This document shows positions 15,617-24,608 of a DNA stretch of 64,000 nt, piece after piece. The position numbers and the translations under genes were made by a program. The notes beneath the pieces are model-generated. The model was not told the origin of the DNA and did no database searches. It worked only from the letters and a program-made list of their open reading frames with translations. Positions within the stretch are counted from its first letter, which is position 1; every line of letters begins with the position of its first letter. Source of the DNA: Anaerolineae bacterium (GTDB lineage: Bacteria > Chloroflexota > Anaerolineae > Anaerolineales > Anaerolineaceae); contig JABUFD010000001.1 of assembly GCA_013314735.1 (NCBI GenBank), positions 372,001 through 436,000 of the forward strand, written 5' to 3'.

Positions 15617-15797
15617 ATTCACCCTGCCATACAGGTGATGCTGCCATCCGGTTTTGTACCAACACTTTAAGTATGGGTTCCGCGTTATCGCGGTGATGTG
15701 ATAGGCTTCGGCCAAGACAGATCCGTGAATCAGGGACCCGCCCTGCTTCTTGCAGGTTCAAAACTTCGCAGCACACGGTATGGCGGGGTATTTTTTT
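15617..15797 (+). ncRNA. ssrS: 6S RNA candidate
   Basis: About 180 bases that code for no protein. The ends ACCCTGCCATAC (15621-15632) and GTATGGCGGGGT (15778-15789) form an uninterrupted 12-bp helix, continued by GTG/CAC and TGCTGC/GCAGCA to a closing stem of about 21 bp. A run of seven T residues follows at once. The 3' half contains AAAACTTCGCAGCACAC, which resembles the AAAACTGCGACGACAC region of E. coli 6S RNA. Length, closing stem, unpaired centre and apical hairpins agree with 6S RNA, the sigma-factor-holoenzyme decoy that accumulates in stationary phase. SRP RNA was excluded because it lacks the GGAAGGAAGCAGCC-type loop. The T-run overlaps the convergent hisE stop. Confidence 0.65.
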
Positions 15798-16071
15798 AAC
15801 GGTGCCGTTTCTCCAGTTCTGCGGCGATGTCCTGCGGGGTGATATCCTGCTGAGCCATCAGCACCAGCACATGGTAGGCCAGATCAGAGATTTCCTCAAC
15901 CAGGCGTTCTTTTCCCTGGCCGCTGGCGGCGATGATCACCTCGGCGGATTCTTCGCCGACTTTTTTGAGGATCTTGTCACGCCCCTGCTGAAACAGGTAG
16001 GTGGTGTAGGAGCCTTCGGGCATCTCCGCTTTTCGGGCCTCGATAATGTCATACAGCGTCTGAAGATTCAT
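15796..16071 (-). CDS. hisE: Phosphoribosyl-ATP pyrophosphatase
   Basis: Second step of histidine synthesis: PR-ATP to PR-AMP plus pyrophosphate. The 91-residue protein has the MazG-like all-alpha core: [31 protein letters not shown] (metal-binding EExxE in GEESAE) and [13 protein letters not shown]. In many bacteria it is fused to HisI. Here the two are separate, but hisE starts 23 bases before the hisI stop, in another frame. It is the last gene of the operon, and no clear minus-strand terminator follows within 100 bases. Confidence 0.95.
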
Positions 16072-16390
16072 CAGGTTGCATTCCTTCCAATTGGGTAAAA
16101 AAACAGGAGGTATTGCCGGTGTGGCAGGCCGGGCCAGCCGGATACACCAGGATCAGGAGAGTATCGGCATCACAATCGACCCAAATACTGCGCACTTTCT
16201 GGGTATTGCCGGAGGTAGCGCCTTTGTGCCATAATACCTGCCTGCTGCGCGACCAGAACACGGTTTCACCGCGTGCCATGGTTTGCGCCAATGATTCGGC
16301 GTTCATGTACGCCATCATCAGTACCTGGTGGGTTTGGGCATCCTGGACAATCGCCGGGATCAGGCCCTGGGGGTTCCATTTCAGGTCCAT
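16049..16390 (-). CDS. hisI: Phosphoribosyl-AMP cyclohydrolase
   Basis: Third step of histidine synthesis, opening the adenine ring of PR-AMP. The 113-residue protein contains [42 protein letters not shown], and the zinc/magnesium-binding [13 protein letters not shown] and [12 protein letters not shown] (Cys ligands). It is short and stand-alone, not the HisIE fusion. It lies 11 bases after hisF and overlaps hisE by 23 bases. Confidence 0.95.
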
Positions 16391-16401
16391 GGCACCTCCG
16401 C

Positions 16402-17172
16402 TTACATCCGCACCGGGACACCGTGGTCGGCGAGGTACTGTTTCAGGTCGGCAATGTGCATCACCCCGTCATGGAACAGGGAGGCAGCGAGAGCCGCGTC
16501 AGCGTTGGCGGTGGTGAGTACATCGGCAAAATGCTGCATGGTGCCCGCGCCGCCGGAAGCGATCACCGGCACATTCACCGCTGCAGTCACCCGGCGGGTT
16601 AACTCGATGTCATACCCTTTAAGGGTGCCATCAGCATCCATGCTGGTCAGCAGGATTTCACCGGCGCCTTTCTCCACCCCGCGTACCGCCCATTCGAGCG
16701 CATCCAGGCCGGTGGGTTGGCGTCCACCGGCAACAAACACCTCCCAGCGGGGGGTGGATTCACTGCCGGGCACACGACGGGCATCGATTGCCAGCACCAT
16801 GCACTGGCTGCCGAACTGGTCAGCGCCGCGGCTGAGCAGTTCGGGGTCACGCACCGCGCTGGAGTTGATGCTGACCTTGTCCGCCCCAGCCAACATCAGC
16901 TTGCGCATATCATCGGTGGTGCGAATGCCGCCGCCAACCGTGAGCGGCATGAACACTTCGCGTGCTACGCGACGTACCACGTCCACCACGGTTTCGCGCT
17001 GTTCGTGGGTGGCGGTGATGTCAAGAAATACAAGTTCATCGGCGCCGGCGTCATTGTAAATGCGCGCCTGTTCCACCGGGTCGCCGGCATCACGCAGGTT
17101 GACGAAATGCACCCCCTTGACCACGCGTCCATTGTTAATGTCAAGGCAGGGAATGATGCGTTTGGCTAGCAT
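16402..17172 (-). CDS. hisF: Imidazole glycerol phosphate synthase, cyclase subunit
   Basis: Uses ammonia delivered by HisH to convert PRFAR to imidazole glycerol phosphate and AICAR. A 256-residue beta/alpha barrel with [21 protein letters not shown] (catalytic Asp in CLDI), [42 protein letters not shown] and [14 protein letters not shown]. The frame is open to 17289, but [12 protein letters not shown] is the conserved start and overlaps the hisA stop by seven bases. HisF and HisH act as a heterodimer. Confidence 0.97.
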
Positions 17173-17915
17173 GGCTGGCCTCCTTTGTAAGCAAATAATG
17201 CAACAGGGTCGAATCGCCCCTCGTAGAGGGCTTTGCCGGTGATCACGCCAGCCAGGCCGGCGGCAGCGGCCTGGTAGATATCGTCCCACCCGGCAACCCC
17301 GCCGGAAGCAATCACGTGCAGGCCGCTGCGCTGGGCCACTTCCTGCGTGGCAGGCAAATTCAGGCCGCTCAGCAGGCCATCCCGGGCAATGTCGGTATAC
17401 ACCAGCCAGGTAATGCCCAACTTGGCCAGGTGACGGGCGAAATCAGCGGCAAATAAGGCGGTTGCGTCCTGCCAGCCACGCGTGCGGACGATGCCATCAC
17501 GGGCATCAATGCTGACCAGGATGCGGTCAGCGCTCCATTTTCGTACTGCTTCCGCCGCCAGCTGCGGACGGGCAACCGCGGCACTGCCCAGGATCACCCG
17601 CGCCGCGCCCAGGTCGAGCAGTTGTTCCATGTCCGCCGCAGATTGGATCCCCCCGCCGATTTGAACCTGGACCCCGGCTGCTGCTGCAGTTGCGAGGATG
17701 TGGGTGATGGCGGTGGTATTCTCGTTGTCATTCTCCCGAAAGGCTCCATCGAGATTGACCACGTGCAGCCATTGCGCGCCGGCGTCGATCCACAGTTTCG
17801 CAACGGCGGCTGGATCTTCGGAATAACGCGTGAGCCGCACTGGATCGCCTTCCTTCAAGCGCACGACTTTTCCGCCGCGCAGATCGATGGCGGGATATAC
17901 GGTGAATGGTGGCAT
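17166..17915 (-). CDS. hisA: Phosphoribosylformimino-AICAR ribotide isomerase
   Basis: Amadori isomerisation of ProFAR to PRFAR. A 249-residue half-barrel-duplicated TIM barrel with [18 protein letters not shown] (catalytic Asp), [30 protein letters not shown] and [13 protein letters not shown] (second catalytic Asp). The start at 17915 ([12 protein letters not shown]) has AGGA about 7 bases upstream. An in-frame ATG at 17936 would give an ATGA overlap with the hisH stop and is a real alternative. It overlaps hisF by seven bases. Confidence 0.96.
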
Positions 17916-17932
17916 AAACGATTCCTTTCGGG

Positions 17933-18547
17933 TCATAGTTCCATAAAGTTCCGCAGCAGCTGCAGGCCGTTGTTCTGGCTTTTTTCGGGGTGAAATTGAA
18001 CCCCATAAACATTGCCTGTACGGATCACACTGGCATACTGGATGCCGTAATCCGTTTGGGCCTGGATCACGGTGCTTTGTGAAGGCAGGCAGTAGAAGGA
18101 ATGGTTGAAATAGAAGTAACTGCCATCCGGAATCTGCCGCAGCAGGGGGCAGGTGCCGGGATGCCAGACCTGGTTCCAACCGGTGTGCGGGATTTTCAAA
18201 CCGCCCAGGTCGGGAAAGAACGGCACCCGGCCTTTGACCAGGCCCAGGCCGGGCCATTGGCCCATTTCTTCACCAAACTCAAACAATGCCTGCATACCCA
18301 CGCAAATCCCGAGCATCGGCACCTGTCGCTGTACCAGGGCTTTGATTGGTTCAATCAACTGGCGTGTCTGGAGGCCTTTGATGAACTGGGCGAATGCGCC
18401 CACACCGGGCAACACCACGCGGGTGCGGCCGTTCAGGTCGTCCGGCCGATCGGTCAGCAGAACCCGGTACCCGAGGAACTGAAGCGCATTGTATACGGAA
18501 GACAGGTTGCCGGTTCCGGCATCGATTAGAATCACATCGTACTGCAT
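17933..18547 (-). CDS. hisH: Imidazole glycerol phosphate synthase, glutamine amidotransferase subunit
   Basis: Hydrolyses glutamine and channels ammonia to HisF. A 204-residue class I amidotransferase with VILIDAGTGNLSSVYNALQ, VVLPGVGAF, the nucleophile elbow MLGICVGMQALFEF (catalytic Cys), and GVQFHPEKSQ (catalytic His and Glu). The frame is open to 18805, overlapping hisCB, but MQYDVILIDAG is the family start and lies 7 bases after the hisCB stop. Confidence 0.96.
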   Translation of the reverse strand: MQYDVILIDAGTGNLSSVYNALQFLGYRVLLTDRPDDLNGRTRVVLPGVGAFAQFIKGLQTRQLIEPIKALVQRQVPMLGICVGMQALFEFGEEMGQWPGLGLVKGRVPFFPDLGGLKIPHTGWNQVWHPGTCPLLRQIPDGSYFYFNHSFYCLPSQSTVIQAQTDYGIQYASVIRTGNVYGVQFHPEKSQNNGLQLLRNFMEL

Positions 18548-18554
18548 GGGCCTC

Positions 18555-20300
18555 CTAGAATAATTCGCCTTTGCTGGAAGGAATGGCGCCTTGACGCCGT
18601 GGGTCAATGCGGGTGGCAGTTGACAGGGCACGTGCCAATGCTTTGAAGGCCGCCTCCGCCTGGTGGTGGGTATCACGCCCATAGGGGATGGATAAGTGTA
18701 GATTGCAGCGCAGTTCTCCCGCGAAACTTTCGAAGAAATGCGTGAACATCGAAACCGGGATGCCGCCGGCGTGCTCCGCCGTCCAATTAATGTGAACCAC
18801 GGCATACGGCCGGCCGGAGAGGTCGAGGGTCAGCTCTGCCAGGGTTTCATCCATTGGTACGCGCACGTCAGCCATGCGCACAATGCCTTTCCTGTCACCG
18901 AGGGCTTTGAGGAATGCATTCCCCAGGGTCAGGGCTACATCTTCGATGGCATGGTGTACATCTACCTCCAGATCACCTGAAGCATTGACGGCAAGGTCAA
19001 ACAGGCCATGCACTGCAATCTGGGTCAGCATATGGTCGAAGAAGGGGATGCCAGTGTTGACCTGGCAAGCCCCGCTGCCATCGAGATTAATTGAGGCCTC
19101 GATGAAGGTTTCCTGCGTGGCGCGTTGGACCGATGCCTTTCGTCCGCGATCTGGTGCTGGGCGGACAGGGCGCAGGGCACTACCCGCTGCCAGTGCGGGA
19201 TTCCCCAACGCATAGAGCATGTCGATCAGAATATCGGTATCCTCGGGTTTGCCAATGCTGATCCGGAGGTAATCCTTGAGTCTGCCGCTGTTATAGTAGC
19301 GGGTGAAAATACCCTGGCGGATGAGATCGGCGTTGAGCGTGGCGGCCGGGCGGTCGTTGACACGGCACAGGATGTAGTTGCTTTGTGAACCGGGTACCGG
19401 ATCCAGGTAAGGGATTTCCGCCAGCCGCTGGTACATCCGCTGGCGTTCCGCTTTGATTTTCTCGACATTTACCGCCAGGAACGGCAGGCTGCCCAGGGAG
19501 GCGGTGGCGGCCTGCTGCGCGGCGACATTCACATTGTAGGGCTGTTTGCAGTTCCATAGAGCGGAGTGCATCCAGCGCGGGAACGCGCCGTATCCCACGC
19601 GCAAACCTGCCAGGCCAGCCCATTTGCTGAATGTGCGCAGTACGATCAAGTTTTCACGCTCCTTTACGTCCTGGATGAAACTGCGTTCCTGCCCCAGGAA
19701 ACCACCATCATCGCAAAATTCGATGTAAGCTTCATCGAGCACCACCAATACCGGCAAGTCAATGATTCGTTGAATTTCCTCACGTGAAGGCAGTGTGCCG
19801 TCAGGATTGTTGGGGGTGGTCAGGAAAAGCACCGCAGGGGATTCGGTTTCTATAGCGGCAGAGACCTGGTCGAAGGGGATCGAAAAATCCGGATTGCGCT
19901 CGATATTTACGATCTCACCGCCGTTGAGGAGTGTATCGAAAGCATACATGCCAAAGGTGGGCACCAGGTTGAGCACTTTTCCTCCGGGTTCGAGCACCAA
20001 CCGAAGGATCAGGTCCAGCAATTCATCCGCGCCGGCGCTGGCAACAAGGAATTCCATCGGCACCCCGGTATAATCGGCCAGGGTGGAGCGCAGTATGCGG
20101 CTTTCCGGGTCAGGGTAAATATTGGGAAACGACAGGTTTGACAGTGCAGCCAGTGCTTCGGGGGCCGGGCCGTAGGGATTTTCGTTCGCGTTCAGCTTCA
20201 CCAGGTCATGGATGGGACGTCCCAACCGCTCCGAAAGGATTTCGAAAGGTTCGATCGGTTGGTAAGGGGGGAGGTTGCGTAAACGTTCTTTGATGTTCAT
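18555..20300 (-). CDS. hisC-hisB: Bifunctional HisC-HisB: histidinol-phosphate aminotransferase fused to imidazoleglycerol-phosphate dehydratase
   Basis: One uninterrupted 581-residue frame. Residues 1 to about 365 are a complete class I/II aminotransferase: NANENPYGP at 38-46, TTPNNPDG near 161-168, the PLP-interacting Asp-189 in VVLDEAYIEF, the Schiff-base Lys-226 in TFSKWAGLAGLR, and the substrate/PLP Arg in LRISIGKPED. A Pro/Arg-rich linker covers about 366-388. Residues 389-581 are a full IGP dehydratase: FFDHML at 420-425, HHAIED at 449-454 and DTHHQAEAAFKAL from 543, the Mn-binding His/Glu repeats. Both active sites look intact. HisB and HisC catalyse consecutive steps (IGP to imidazole acetol phosphate to histidinol phosphate). 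The well-known E. coli HisB fusion partner is instead a phosphatase. The gene overlaps hisD by ATGA. Confidence 0.95.
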   Translation of the reverse strand: MNIKERLRNLPPYQPIEPFEILSERLGRPIHDLVKLNANENPYGPAPEALAALSNLSFPNIYPDPESRILRSTLADYTGVPMEFLVASAGADELLDLILRLVLEPGGKVLNLVPTFGMYAFDTLLNGGEIVNIERNPDFSIPFDQVSAAIETESPAVLFLTTPNNPDGTLPSREEIQRIIDLPVLVVLDEAYIEFCDDGGFLGQERSFIQDVKERENLIVLRTFSKWAGLAGLRVGYGAFPRWMHSALWNCKQPYNVNVAAQQAATASLGSLPFLAVNVEKIKAERQRMYQRLAEIPYLDPVPGSQSNYILCRVNDRPAATLNADLIRQGIFTRYYNSGRLKDYLRISIGKPEDTDILIDMLYALGNPALAAGSALRPVRPAPDRGRKASVQRATQETFIEASINLDGSGACQVNTGIPFFDHMLTQIAVHGLFDLAVNASGDLEVDVHHAIEDVALTLGNAFLKALGDRKGIVRMADVRVPMDETLAELTLDLSGRPYAVVHINWTAEHAGGIPVSMFTHFFESFAGELRCNLHLSIPYGRDTHHQAEAAFKALARALSTATRIDPRRQGAIPSSKGELF

Positions 20301-21622
20301 AAGCGCACCTCTGCGGCATTGGCATGGGCATCAAGGCCTTCGAAATGGGCAATCCGGGCAGCTGCCGGCGCAATCGACCTGGCAGTTGCTGGATCCATGG
20401 CGATCAGGCTGACAAGATGGATGAAATCGAGTACATTGATCGGACTGGAAAACCGGGCAGACCCGCCGGTAGGCATGCAATGGGATGGTCCGGCTGCGTA
20501 ATCCCCCAGCACCTCAAAGGAATGCTCACCGACGAAGACACCGCCGGCGGCATGGAGTTTTTCCGTCCATGCCCATGGATCCTCAACTGAAAGGCACAGG
20601 TGTTCCGGGGCGTATGCATTGGACAGTTCACAGGCCTCTGCCAGGCTGGCAGTCAGCACCGCCCCCGAGCGATGCTTGAGGGATTGGCGGATGGTTTCGC
20701 GGCGTTTCCGTTCAGCAAGCTGGCGCTCCACCGCCGCCTGTACTTTCGCGATCAATGACTGCGAGGGGGTCAGCAATATCGCGGACGCCATGCTGTCATG
20801 TTCCGCCTGTGCCAGCAGGTCAGCGGCCACCCATTCGGGATTAGCGCTGTCATCGGCGATCACCAGGGTTTCTGTGGGACCTGCCAGGTTGTCGATGCCG
20901 ACAGCACCGAACACCTTTTGCTTGGCGATGGTCACAAAGATATTACCTGGTCCGAAGATTTTATCCACCCGGCGGATGGTGCGGGTGCCGTAGGCAAGCG
21001 CGCCGATCGCCTGGGCGCCGCCGATCGCGTATACTTCGTCGATGCCCAGCAGGCTGGCAGCAGCCAGGATACCCTGGTTAACCTTGCCGGTGTTCTTTTC
21101 CGGCGGTGAGACCAGCACAATTTCGGTAACGCCTGCCACCTGGGCAGGTACCGCACTCATGATCACTGTGGAAGGGAGGGGAGCGGTTCCGGCGGGGATG
21201 TAGAGTCCCACGCGCCAAATCGGTCGCACCCACTGGCCGAGGGTACCACCAAGGTCGTTGGTGATCCAGGAGGTAACCGGTTGTTTGCGGTGGAAGTTCC
21301 GTACCCGTTCGATCGATAGTTCCAGCGCGCTACGCAGGTCTTGTGGCAGCGCTGCAAGGGCGGCTGAGATTTCGTCTGCGGAAACGAGCAGTGATTCCGG
21401 GGCAAATCCATCAATTTTGCGGGTATAGTCCAGCACGGCTTCATCGCCCCGCTCACGCACATCGTGCAGGATGCGGTCAACCACCTGTTCCGGGGAGAGG
21501 GTTTCACCAAAAACCTGTTGGATTCCTGCCTGCAAAGCAGGAGAGACCGGCAGCTCGCTCAACAGTCCGCGTTTTAGAATCGTATTTTTTGCCTCAGGTA
21601 CTGAATAACACTGGAGGGGCAT
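20297..21622 (-). CDS. hisD: Histidinol dehydrogenase
   Basis: Oxidises histidinol twice with NAD+ to histidine, the final step. A 441-residue protein with PVTSWITNDLGGTLGQWVRPI, GLYIPAGTAPLPSTVIM, AYAIGGAQAIGALAYGT-type segment, VDKIFGPGNIFVTIAKQKV, GPTETLVIADDSANPEW, DLLAQAEHDSMAS (zinc and catalytic His/Gln region) and APEHLCLSVEDPW. Length is typical. The stop overlaps the hisCB start (ATGA), so translation is coupled. It follows hisG by 2 bases. Confidence 0.97.
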   Translation of the reverse strand: MPLQCYSVPEAKNTILKRGLLSELPVSPALQAGIQQVFGETLSPEQVVDRILHDVRERGDEAVLDYTRKIDGFAPESLLVSADEISAALAALPQDLRSALELSIERVRNFHRKQPVTSWITNDLGGTLGQWVRPIWRVGLYIPAGTAPLPSTVIMSAVPAQVAGVTEIVLVSPPEKNTGKVNQGILAAASLLGIDEVYAIGGAQAIGALAYGTRTIRRVDKIFGPGNIFVTIAKQKVFGAVGIDNLAGPTETLVIADDSANPEWVAADLLAQAEHDSMASAILLTPSQSLIAKVQAAVERQLAERKRRETIRQSLKHRSGAVLTASLAEACELSNAYAPEHLCLSVEDPWAWTEKLHAAGGVFVGEHSFEVLGDYAAGPSHCMPTGGSARFSSPINVLDFIHLVSLIAMDPATARSIAPAAARIAHFEGLDAHANAAEVRL

Positions 21623-21624
21623 GG

Positions 21625-22647
21625 TTAATTCTCCTTCTGGATCGCTTTGATCATTGCGGTATAGCGGGGAGGTTCTTCTTCAAAAATGAACATCACCGGC
21701 AGAACCACCACACCGCTGCCGCCGACTTCTCGCAGAGCATTGACAGCCTGGAATAACTCTGTTCGACGAACGACCACATTGACAGCAAACCATCCGCTGC
21801 TGCTGTCTTCCACGAACACCGGTGAGATGGTAGGGCCTTGCAGGCCGTTGATCACGTCATTCTCAAATAATTTTCGGGCGATTGCCTCCGGTGACTCACC
21901 GCGCATGTTGGCGAAGACAGATACATTGTCCTTGCCACGCAGGTTGGCTTCGATGTATTCCAGCAGGATGCGCGCCACGCGTTGCGCTTCCGGATTCTTT
22001 TGCAGGGCTGTGATATTGCCGATCAGGCTGGCCTGGGAGCGGAGGATGATCCCGTCCGGGAGGGCACGCAGACGGTTGTCCTTCAGTGTCTGGCCGGATG
22101 AAACCAGGTCAGAGATCATATCGGCATAGCCAATCGCTGGTGCGGTTTCGAGTGTACCCTCCGTGGTTATCAGGTCGGCTTCGATTCTCAAACTTGCCAG
22201 AAAGCGGCCGGTGAGGGTCGGAAACTTGGTGACAATCCGCAGCGGCCTGCCCAACCGGACCGCCTTGCCGCTTAATTCCACCGTAGATGGGACATCTTCC
22301 CATCCCTCCGGCACGGCCAACTGCAAGCGGCATCCGCCGAATCCAAGCGCATCGTGCAGGATCAGCACCTGGTTTTCATCCCCTTTGAATTCCTCGATCA
22401 CATCCAGTCCGCTGATGCCGAAGTCCATACTGCCATCGCGCACCGCATTGACAATATCGATCGGGCGTTGAAAAAAGATATCGAGCCCGGGAATTTCCCG
22501 AATGGTCGCCTGGTATTGGCGCGGATTGGGTTTATGAATGGTCAGGCCGCACTCCTGCAGGAATGCTACCGCACTCTCACTGAGAACCCCTTTGGAGGGC
22601 AGTGACAGGCGTACATTGCGTTGGCTTGGGCTGGGTAGATTACTCAT
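21625..22647 (-). CDS. hisG: ATP phosphoribosyltransferase, long form
   Basis: First and committed step: ATP plus PRPP to PR-ATP. At 340 residues it is the long form, with its own C-terminal ACT-like regulatory domain (about 260-340, with SGVVVLPVMFIFEEEPPRYTAMI). No HisZ partner is therefore needed, and feedback inhibition by histidine is expected from family knowledge. The catalytic part has NVRLSLPSKGVLSESAVAFL, GLDIFFQRPIDIVNAVRDGSMDFGISGLDVIEE and EGTLETAPAIGYADMISDLVSSGQTL (PRPP-loop region). It is the first structural gene of the operon, 36 bases after the attenuator terminator. AGGA lies about 18 bases upstream, a weak Shine-Dalgarno. Confidence 0.96.
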   Translation of the reverse strand: MSNLPSPSQRNVRLSLPSKGVLSESAVAFLQECGLTIHKPNPRQYQATIREIPGLDIFFQRPIDIVNAVRDGSMDFGISGLDVIEEFKGDENQVLILHDALGFGGCRLQLAVPEGWEDVPSTVELSGKAVRLGRPLRIVTKFPTLTGRFLASLRIEADLITTEGTLETAPAIGYADMISDLVSSGQTLKDNRLRALPDGIILRSQASLIGNITALQKNPEAQRVARILLEYIEANLRGKDNVSVFANMRGESPEAIARKLFENDVINGLQGPTISPVFVEDSSSGWFAVNVVVRRTELFQAVNALREVGGSGVVVLPVMFIFEEEPPRYTAMIKAIQKEN

Positions 22648-22682
22648 ACTGTTATTGTAGTCATCCTTTCACGAAATGGAAT

Positions 22683-22709
22683 AAAAAAACCCCGGTGCGC
22701 TGACCGGGG
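22683..22709 (-). terminator. Attenuator terminator of the his operon
   Basis: On the minus strand CCCCGGT (22709-22703) and ACCGGGG (22696-22690) enclose a six-base loop CAGCGC and are followed by seven T residues (22689-22683). It stands between the leader peptide and hisG, not after a gene, so its role must be conditional. Confidence 0.92.
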
Positions 22710-22764
22710 TCGGGATTTTGGTTTAAGCAAAAAATTCCAGACGTTCCTGTCAGGCGCACTGGGG
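22690..22764 (-). promoter_or_regulatory. Antiterminator pairing of the his leader
   Basis: The 3' half of the leader-peptide frame, from CCCCAGTGCGC through the TGA stop (22764-22750), can pair with TCAGCGCAC and GGGG of the terminator (22703-22690). That gives 13 base pairs, with one A-C mismatch and one bulged C. This uses both the loop and the 3' arm of the terminator hairpin, so the two structures exclude each other. A ribosome waiting on the four upstream His codons would leave this segment free (read-through), and one at the stop codon would cover it (termination). Confidence 0.75.
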
Positions 22765-22785
22765 CTGTGAATGATGATGATGCAT
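22750..22785 (-). CDS. hisL: His operon leader peptide with four consecutive histidine codons
   Basis: An 11-codon frame encoding MHHHHSQPQCA, with all four His codons CAT, ending at TGA. It sits about 23 bases after the predicted start point of the transcript and about 40 bases before the attenuator terminator. It is the same logic as the enterobacterial hisL (seven His in a row in E. coli), but with an unrelated sequence. AGGT lies 10 bases upstream of the ATG, a weak Shine-Dalgarno. Its product has no expected function, and ribosome speed over the His codons is the signal. The role is inferred from position, codon content and the overlapping antiterminator. Confidence 0.82.
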   Translation of the reverse strand: MHHHHSQPQCA

Positions 22786-22816
22786 CTGGAAAACGACCTG
22801 TGATTTCATAGGCAAA

Positions 22817-22845
22817 AATGTATCAGAAATACAACACTTTGTCAA
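22817..22845 (-). promoter_or_regulatory. Promoter of the his operon
   Basis: TTGACA (22845-22840) and TACATT (22822-22817) are separated by exactly 17 bases on the minus strand. The predicted start point is near 22809, giving a leader of about 160 bases before hisG that contains the leader peptide and the terminator. Confidence 0.8.
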
Positions 22846-22898: not shown

Positions 22899-24608
22899 AT
22901 GATGAAAACGCTTGATCTGCTGAGGACTTACCCCGACTTGCCGAATGTGGATGGTGAAGGGTTTTTGTTTGCGTTTTCCGGCATGGATGGCGAAACGTGC
23001 AGCGCCAGCCAGTTCGTGCTGACACGACACCGCGAAGGGTATGATTTCCTGGTGGAAACACCGCAACGCCATCGATTGCGAATACGGTTGGGACGAACGG
23101 GAACCGTGCTTGTGGTAACAGGCGATGTTTTCGTGGTCGAATTCGATGACGCAATGTTGATTGTCAGTTTTTCCGCATGGCATACCCTGGTGGGACAACT
23201 GCCCAATGATGCGGTAGTCTCCTTGTTGGATGAATCTCGCAAACGCGTACAGGATGTTTCAAAGTGCAGCAAGCAGGATGAAACCCTGGCATTGGCACGC
23301 ATGGGTAGTCGTTTCAGCCTGTCGTATGGGACCAGTCGAGTGGAAGCCGAAAGCCGTGCCCTGGCTGGTCTAACTGCATTGGTTGACGAAGTGATCCAAC
23401 AATGCCTGGCTCCATATCGAAGTCTGCCGCGGTTGGCAGATCACAGGGACAGCCGTCTACTTCGGAAGTGCTTCAGCGTGATGCGGGTCAACACGCTGGC
23501 AGCAGAAGGCGTCTTTCCCCAGGCATGGTCCACCCCGGACCGGGTACCGCACAAAGACCTGTGGCTGTGGGATTCTGTGTTTCATTCTCTCGCCATGAAC
23601 AAGGTGAATGCCGGATTTGGGTGGCATTTCTTGAAATCCGTGCTGGATCAGCAGGCACTGGATGGAATGATCTCCCATCAGGTCAGGGTGAACGGATGGA
23701 AAAGTGACATTACCCAACCGCCAATCCTGGCATGGGGTGTCTGGGAAAATTATCTGGCACAGCAGAACCGGGATGTGTTGGCTTATGCAGCACCGCGGTT
23801 GGCGGCCTACCTGGACTGGGATGCCAGGCACCGCGACCGCAATGGGAATTCCCTGCTGGAATGGCAAATCGAGGGCGACCGCAATTGCCGCTCAGGGGAA
23901 TCGGGAATGGATAATTCCCAACGATTTGATGAAGCTTTACTGCTGGATGCGGTAGATTTTTCTGCATTTGCCGCACTGGAGATGGCATACCTGGCGCGGA
24001 TGTACGATGTATTGGGTGATACCGGGTCTGCCCAGGCGTGGCGGTCTCGATCCAGCCTGCTCTCAGGCGCGGTTCACCAGCAGCTCTGGAATTCGAAATT
24101 GGGTTTTTATTGTGACCGGAAAATGGACGGTACATTTTCACCTGTTCAAGCGGTGACAGGCTTCCTACCCCTGCTCCTGGATGACTTCCCGGCTGAACGG
24201 CTGCCTGTGCTGGTTACTGCCCTGCAGGATGAAAGCCGTTTTAATACACGCTTCCCACTGTCTTCTGTCGCTGTTTCCACGCCTGGTTGGAGCACCGATA
24301 TGTGGCGTGGAGCCACCTGGATTAATATGAACTACCTGTGTATCCTGGGATTTGAGAAACAAGGAATGCCAGGGATAGCGAAAGAGATTCGACGGATTAC
24401 CATCGACAGGATTCGTCATTATTACGAGCAAACAGGGGTAATCTATGAATTTTTCGATGCCAAAGACCAGATTTTCCCTGCGGAATGCGACCGGAAGGGG
24501 CGGAGAAAACAACCGTATGATATCCGGCGAAAAATGGATTCCATCCGTGATTACCATTGGAGTGCTGCCCTGTGTTACCTGATGCTTGCCGACACGGAGA
24601 CGCCTTGA
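22899..24608 (+). CDS. Trehalase/GH63-like (alpha/alpha)6-barrel glycoside hydrolase
   Basis: A 569-residue protein without a signal peptide. After an N-terminal beta-rich region of about 200 residues, the C-terminal part shows the (alpha/alpha)6 signature of GH63/GH37-type enzymes: KDLWLWDSVFHSLAMNKV, GMISHQVRVNGWKSDITQPPILAW, SGESGMDNSQRFDE (the ESGMDNS-type segment typical of GH63 and mannosylglycerate hydrolases), WRGATWINMNYL and IYEFFDAK near the end. A cytoplasmic glucosidase acting on short alpha-linked sugars or glycosylated compatible solutes is plausible, but the substrate is unknown. It is divergent from the his operon. A second ATG at 22902 is an equally good start. Confidence 0.75.
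   Translation: MMKTLDLLRTYPDLPNVDGEGFLFAFSGMDGETCSASQFVLTRHREGYDFLVETPQRHRLRIRLGRTGTVLVVTGDVFVVEFDDAMLIVSFSAWHTLVGQLPNDAVVSLLDESRKRVQDVSKCSKQDETLALARMGSRFSLSYGTSRVEAESRALAGLTALVDEVIQQCLAPYRSLPRLADHRDSRLLRKCFSVMRVNTLAAEGVFPQAWSTPDRVPHKDLWLWDSVFHSLAMNKVNAGFGWHFLKSVLDQQALDGMISHQVRVNGWKSDITQPPILAWGVWENYLAQQNRDVLAYAAPRLAAYLDWDARHRDRNGNSLLEWQIEGDRNCRSGESGMDNSQRFDEALLLDAVDFSAFAALEMAYLARMYDVLGDTGSAQAWRSRSSLLSGAVHQQLWNSKLGFYCDRKMDGTFSPVQAVTGFLPLLLDDFPAERLPVLVTALQDESRFNTRFPLSSVAVSTPGWSTDMWRGATWINMNYLCILGFEKQGMPGIAKEIRRITIDRIRHYYEQTGVIYEFFDAKDQIFPAECDRKGRRKQPYDIRRKMDSIRDYHWSAALCYLMLADTETP

Follow-up and report, generated by a model that had tools for sequence, protein, structure and literature searches.

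Does the short leader in front of hisG allow the cell to adjust transcription of the his operon to the supply of histidine? Leader-peptide attenuation is a textbook case of coupled transcription and translation, and the arrangement found in the window (the whole stretch of 64,000 nucleotides analysed here) has its appearance. On the minus strand the order is promoter, short frame with four CAT codons, GC-rich hairpin followed by seven T, and hisG from 22647. The first-pass annotation had read this order as a His-codon leader-peptide attenuator of the his operon, and conservation, codon specificity and competing folds, all taken from sequence, support that reading. We regard it as very probable that the element is a ribosome-mediated transcription attenuator of the his operon with a leader peptide read from a leaderless mRNA.

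The his leader, the operon and their relatives

The promoter is of the sigma-70 type (22817–22845, minus strand), with TTGACA at 22845–22840, TACATT at 22822–22817 and the previously annotated spacing of 17 nt between them, and it matches 10 of 12 consensus bases. The four tandem CAT (His) codons, the proposed sensor, occupy 22771–22782 (minus strand). The intrinsic terminator (22683–22710, minus strand) consists of the stem-loop ACCCCGGTCAGCGCACCGGGGT at 22710–22689 and T7 at 22689–22683; the terminator with seven T that had been placed at 22683–22709 is this hairpin, and it was the first-listed terminator-like match in the 13-kb region scanned. That region holds 17 such matches against 14.1 ± 4.0 expected in shuffles, and a hairpin with T7 is an ordinary intrinsic terminator, as would be expected if it were a constitutive terminator between the divergent gene and hisG, with a His-rich frame arisen by chance and no regulation. 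However, the hairpin is placed after the promoter and ahead of the first his gene, and several families conserve the competing pairing as well as the His run, the frame and the geometry of the start, which makes constitutive termination very improbable. The divergent gene, a glycoside hydrolase at 22899–24608 (plus strand) with MGH1-like, GH63 and trehalase matches, shares its intergenic region with the his leader.

Downstream of the leader, a Pfam search found the his genes from hisG to hisE all co-directional on the minus strand. hisG, the first gene of the presumed operon, has the long form with HisG and HisG_C domains (21625–22647; PF01634, PF08029). It is followed by hisD (20297–21622; PF00815) and by hisC and hisB fused in one 581-aa frame (18555–20300; PF00155 and PF00475), in which hisC, a class I/II aminotransferase, is assigned by context and HisB is the IGPD. 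Next come hisH (17933–18550; PF00117), a glutamine amidotransferase assigned by context, hisA (17166–17942) and hisF (16402–17169), both of which match His_biosynth (PF00977) and are provisionally told apart by gene order, hisI (16049–16390; PF01502) and hisE (15796–16071; PF01503). Just beyond the end of hisE, on the opposite strand, lies a 6S RNA (15618–15793, plus strand; Rfam RF00013, 66.8 bits). At the other end, a six-codon frame ATGACTACAATAACAGTATGA at 22644–22664 (minus strand) overlaps the hisG start in a TATGA junction; it may be a product of chance or a reinitiation site.

Of 147 genomes of the family, 45 gave a HisG match, as did 286 of 396 genomes sampled from the class. The comparison covered 107 hisG upstream regions, namely 40 family loci and 67 other class loci; the latter, drawn from the 286 genomes with a HisG match, were the 27 best-scoring and 40 picked by hand for spread over families. 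Five weak family HisG matches were dropped, four of which (L042–L045) were kept out of the 107 because the match was partial or poor. A strict test asked for a run of three or more consecutive His codons, or for four or more His, a pair among them, within a short stretch, together with a hairpin and T run before hisG. It was passed at 70 of the 107 loci (37 of 40 in the family), although these 70 leaders are related rather than independent and the class sample was partly chosen by hand. The passing loci belong to the family and to ten other family labels (f2, f10, f13, f25, f38, f45, f49, f53, f57 and f60), which makes eleven family-level groups. The test failed at 37 loci, including all 20 tested of f7, f14, f19, f23, f44 and f48 and all nine from eight further families with few loci sampled; some of the failing loci (for example L067, L072 and L098) keep shorter His clusters.

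A second set of 80 loci, which overlaps the first, gave a leaderless His-dense frame at 69 of the 78 loci with at least 250 nt upstream; the two others had less than this. The cultured genera Ornatilinea, Levilinea, Leptolinea, Longilinea and Thermanaerothrix carry such a frame at hisG. No His-rich frame was seen at any of 20 new hisG loci of a phylum-wide sample, 17 of them outside the class (from 30 genomes drawn out of 160 with a match). Within the leaders the His codons vary synonymously, with 197 CAT and 40 CAC.

Start of the leader frame

The leader had been annotated as an 11-codon frame from 22785 to 22750, and ATG, four CAT codons and a closing TGA are indeed present there; its start, however, is more likely to lie further upstream. 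The His frame is open upstream of 22785 as far as an ATG at 22809–22807, exactly 7 nt after the −10 hexamer and 24 nt upstream of the internal ATG. Since relatives conserve a start of the 22809 type and not the internal ATG, the frame (22750–22809, minus strand) is most likely leaderless and has 19 codons including the start, followed by TGA at 22752–22750 (MKSQVVFQMHHHHSQPQCA).

The start geometry was examined in the 70 leaders with the promoter picked by hexamer score alone. The first in-frame ATG or GTG falls 6–11 nt after the −10 hexamer in 66 leaders, the four others being L021, L041, L062 and L105, and the window shares this promoter-to-start geometry. At matching distances in the other two frames, none of 280 positions holds an ATG or GTG. 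A Shine-Dalgarno-like core 4–16 nt before the leader start was found in none of the 70 leaders against a background of 7%, in a 13-nt interval that is partly filled by the −10 box itself as a consequence of the geometry. For hisG, the starts of which are estimates from the protein match, such a core lies within −30 to +12 at 62 of 70 loci (background 30%), in an interval of 42 nt compared with the 13 nt used for the leaders, and in the preceding 20 nt at 28 of 70 (background 13%). As a rule, transcription sets in some 7 nt past the −10 hexamer, and therefore the mRNA should begin at the leader AUG or a few bases before it. On this promoter geometry, the leader peptide is probably read from a leaderless mRNA.

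The same attenuator could also work with a conventional 5' UTR and a peptide MHHHHSQPQCA read from the internal ATG at 22785. In the window and in L012 an ATG immediately precedes the His run, and in the window CAGG lies about 11 nt upstream of it. Among the family peptides listed, however, a Met adjoining the His run occurs only in these two, and an internal start is at odds both with the regular in-frame start after the −10 hexamer and with the lack of a Shine-Dalgarno-like core before that start. We therefore judge an internal start very improbable and retain the leaderless frame from 22809.

A search of the whole 4.09-Mb genome for a promoter with an ATG 6–9 nt after the −10 hexamer gave 30 places, compared with 18 for a reversed-pattern control. 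Read by eye, two of the 30 combine a cluster of codons for a single amino acid with a terminator and a gene making that amino acid. One is the his leader of the window and the other is an argG leader in which CGA (Arg) makes up three of five successive codons. A third place, L141, has a short frame and T runs, with no codon cluster visible by eye. The pattern also matches before long frames (L115, L121, L131 and L137), which by eye we take to be DnaJ-, PadR-, TetR- and MerR-type proteins, and leaderless mRNAs may thus be a regular feature of this genome. By the prediction in the consulted part of PMC3160421, just 4 of 12 Chloroflexi genomes have leaderless genes, which make up about 4–6% of the genes in those four, and with leaderless genes so scarce the 66 of 70 leader starts form a strong contrast.

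Competing folds and the proposed switch

The antiterminator is predicted to join a 5' strand, GCGCCUGACAGG at 22746–22757 (minus strand), to a 3' strand at 22697–22707 (minus strand) that is made up of the terminator 5' arm and loop. A second pairing, between the leader frame and the terminator loop and 3' arm, had been proposed in the first-pass annotation. A competing helix does exist, but the pairing shared by relatives is with the 5' arm and loop (22757–22746 with 22707–22697); in the window genome this shared helix continues outwards into the pairing with the loop and 3' arm. The further proposal, that terminator and second pairing exclude each other, agrees with the computed minimum-energy fold of the 128-nt leader, which is the antiterminator fold and occupies both terminator arms. 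The folding energy of this leader is −39.3 kcal/mol against −27.46 ± 3.45 in 200 shuffles (z −3.43, 0 shuffles as good).

Across the 70 leaders, what recurs is a helix between the stretch that follows the His codons and the 5' arm and loop of the terminator; its letters differ between lineages with complementarity kept. The helices are GACCGG/CCGGTC in the family and f2, GATTGG/CCAATC in four family members, GGTCGGG/CCCGACC in f2, GATTCGGG/CCCGAATC in f53, GATCGAAGG/CCTTCGATC in f25 and GGTCAGG/CCTGACC in f57; each is the best of its leader, and shuffles therefore serve as the test. Measured by duplex energy, at most 5 of 100 dinucleotide shuffles are as good in 46 of the 70 leaders (mean z −2.2), with the window at 4 of 100, and 24 leaders fall short of this level. 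Conservation in relatives, which had been set beforehand as the test that could overturn the proposal, was thus found for the His codons (70 of 107 loci by the strict test) as well as for the antiterminator. A MAFFT alignment of 41 of the 70 leaders placed the antiterminator GG inconsistently between rows, with short and long forms, so that covariation pairs were not counted and duplex energies against shuffles were used instead. Testing pairings across families was of only moderate use (median native rank 0.18), C-rich arms common to the terminators being the probable reason.

This turnover of letters also bears on whether the leader is a His T-box or is bound by a HisR- or TRAP-like protein, with the small frame incidental. 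T-boxes occur in Chloroflexi according to the part of PMC3766115 consulted. However, the window and 15 relatives gave no Rfam cis-regulatory match at gathering score, T-box and His_leader (RF00514) included, and the window leader alone gave 12 weak Rfam matches, none of them a T-box or an amino-acid leader. A protein-binding leader fits poorly with the fact that, outside the His run and terminator, it is mainly complementarity that recurs. We consider T-box or protein control extremely improbable, more so than any other explanation weighed here.

The effect of a ribosome was modelled with its edge 13 nt past the start of the A-site codon. Over the 70 leaders, the mean modelled probability of the terminator is 0.54 for a ribosome on the first His codon and 0.97 for one at the stop; in the latter state the model deletes all sequence 5' of the ribosome, which by itself reduces pairing. 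With the segment shuffled, the stalled value is 0.94 compared with the native 0.54 (paired Wilcoxon p 7e-7). The native stalled value is below the shuffled mean in 46 of 70 leaders and not below it in 24; in 40 of 70, at most 1 of 20 shuffles is as low. For the window leader the modelled probability is about 0 when stalled and 0.97 at the stop. In a model with no ribosome the window leader is predicted to be read through, and the mean probability of the terminator over the 70 leaders is 0.82.

The proposed switch would work as follows. The mRNA would begin with the AUG at 22809 or no more than a few bases away from it, and with such a start a ribosome could load once the 5' end emerges. When charged tRNA-His is scarce, this ribosome would stall on the four CAT codons and leave the strand at 22757–22746 free to pair with 22707–22697, extending in the window genome into the 3' arm. 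With the antiterminator formed, RNA polymerase would read through into hisG-D-CB-H-A-F-I-E. When histidine is plentiful, the ribosome would reach the UGA and, as the antiterminator 5' strand overlaps the stop codon, cover 22757–22746, so that the terminator could fold and transcription would stop. There are 21 leaders among the 70, six of these from the family, in which the antiterminator strand stops 16–31 nt short of the end of the stop codon; there a ribosome at the stop would account for covering only in part, and the covering step must differ in timing.

A protector (1:2) hairpin after the His codons, of the form ACC..CCTCC/GGAGG..GGT, had been noticed by eye. Folding up to 60 nt after the run supported it in 5 of 70 leaders (mean z −0.15), and as this is no excess over shuffles the hairpin was dropped as a general feature. 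Such a hairpin is an optional feature of ribosome-mediated attenuators and not a condition of the kind. This raises the question of whether leaderless initiation replaces it by ensuring that a ribosome has loaded by the time the terminator is transcribed; early leaderless loading might then hold a ribosome on the leader and so permit termination.

A probable arginine counterpart and relation to known attenuators

In an identical scan of 107 hisG and 57 argG loci, the codons of the leader matched the operon downstream. His-dense leaderless frames stand at 72 of the 107 hisG loci and at 0 of the 57 argG loci, whereas Arg-dense ones stand at 24 of 57 argG and 7 of 107 hisG loci. The 57 argG loci comprise 30 from a class search and 27 new ones from an order search, and an Arg-dense frame followed by a T run was found at 22 of them (4 of 30 and 18 of 27), counting one locus (L167) with an implausible terminator. 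In this genome the argG leader (L130; C9:497316–497352, minus strand, outside the window) is the leaderless-looking MAIKTAFSIFRRTRPQHMDIQMVL, with three CGA codons and a terminator directly before argG. At argG, peptides resembling MFAFFALPRTRRPKPTS and MFTLISNPRRPRRKKLSS are found repeatedly. The argG antiterminators reach the 5-in-100 level in 14 of 22 cases; that of this genome misses it, with 23 of 100 shuffles as good. Our data support the conclusion that the his element is one member of a class of regulators present in several families, of which argG has an arginine version.

Comparable frames are lacking at other biosynthetic genes. A Trp-dense leaderless frame was found at 1 of 30 trpE loci, on the strand opposite trpE. 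Ile/Leu/Val-dense frames were found at 1 of 30 leuA loci (L353 in G038, MNRLIDVNLFFGLLLSRLYTDV, with a T run after it) and 1 of 30 ilvB loci (L370), in scans anchored at the protein-match position. We take these single frames as chance, though L353 could be a lone real leucine leader. The leader grammar is therefore not used for every amino acid, at least by the scan used. PF00425 (chorismate-binding, including anthranilate synthase I) has no match at E 0.001 in the whole of this genome, the assembly of which is 95.5% complete, and the organism may be a tryptophan auxotroph.

We lean, with moderate confidence, towards an attenuator grammar of the Anaerolineae' own that evolved independently. 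It would consist of a leaderless peptide placed on the promoter, a sensor typically about eight codons in and a bare antiterminator and terminator, with early loading in place of a protector hairpin. It would have been used at least two times, with His at hisG and Arg (for example MFSLFALPRSRRPKPAS...) at argG. The occurrence of the attenuator in eleven family-level groups of a Chloroflexota class, with the leader frame at or near the 5' end, suggests that the mechanism arose more than once. Independence from the Proteobacteria is likely in view of the missing Rfam His_leader match and the different mode of initiation. If the grammar is indeed used in both places, the argG leader would represent attenuation of transcription by arginine at a bacterial biosynthetic gene. 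The argG leader offers an arginine-sensing sister for comparison, and the his element is present in cultured genera.

According to the parts of PMC2965389 and PMC9413887 consulted, leader-peptide attenuation has been described mainly in Proteobacteria, with cases in Actinobacteria and Firmicutes. In the openly licensed literature, among the matches listed and judged by title and start of abstract, no his or arg leader-peptide attenuator has been described in Chloroflexi or Chloroflexota. A survey of 43 Rfam motifs, including four amino-acid leaders, covered 255 genomes, five of them Chloroflexi, and in its consulted part suggests that those amino-acid leaders may have originated in gamma-proteobacteria (PMC3766115). 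In Actinobacteria, conserved RNA structure was not observed at histidine or arginine operons, as far as the consulted part of PMC1262725 goes.

Closer parallels are known for single features, here as described in the consulted parts of the papers. Candidate His attenuators in the Bacillus cereus group, Peptostreptococcaceae and Erysipelotrichales (PMC9413887) likewise carry runs of three to five His codons ahead of his operons, together with a terminator and an antiterminator; they differ in belonging to Firmicutes, leaderless starts are not mentioned in that part of the paper, and its single mention of 'Chloroflexi' stands in the title of a reference. The hisZ/hisS* leaders of bacilli (PMC2965389) are also computationally found His leader peptides outside the Proteobacteria; they precede hisS paralogues in Firmicutes, and the part of the main text consulted contains neither 'Chloroflex' nor 'arginine'. 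The polycysteine leaderless short ORFs of mycobacteria (Canestrari 2020, described in PMC9031893) resemble the his leader, as predicted here, in their leaderless short frame, tandem sensor codons and control of a downstream operon. They differ in sensing cysteine, in occurring in Actinobacteria and in regulating translation of the downstream genes, whereas the terminator between leader and hisG points to control of transcription. The trpL of Sinorhizobium meliloti (PMC7298713) is a transcription attenuator with an RNA that starts at the leader-peptide ATG; it differs in its Trp codons, in its place in the Alphaproteobacteria and in controlling trpE(G) only.

With the enterobacterial his attenuator (RF00514) the element shares tandem His codons in a leader frame, an intrinsic terminator, a competing antiterminator and a his operon downstream. 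Here, however, the start lies at the promoter, with neither a Shine-Dalgarno core nor a detectable protector hairpin, and there is no Rfam match. Sensor codons, terminator and, by computation, an exclusive antiterminator predicted to be released by stalling place the element in the general kind of ribosome-mediated attenuation, and it is filed there rather than under His_leader. It differs from the classical attenuators in its lineage, its probably leaderless start, its arginine sister and the fact that no protector hairpin could be detected; the proposed working principle is alike.
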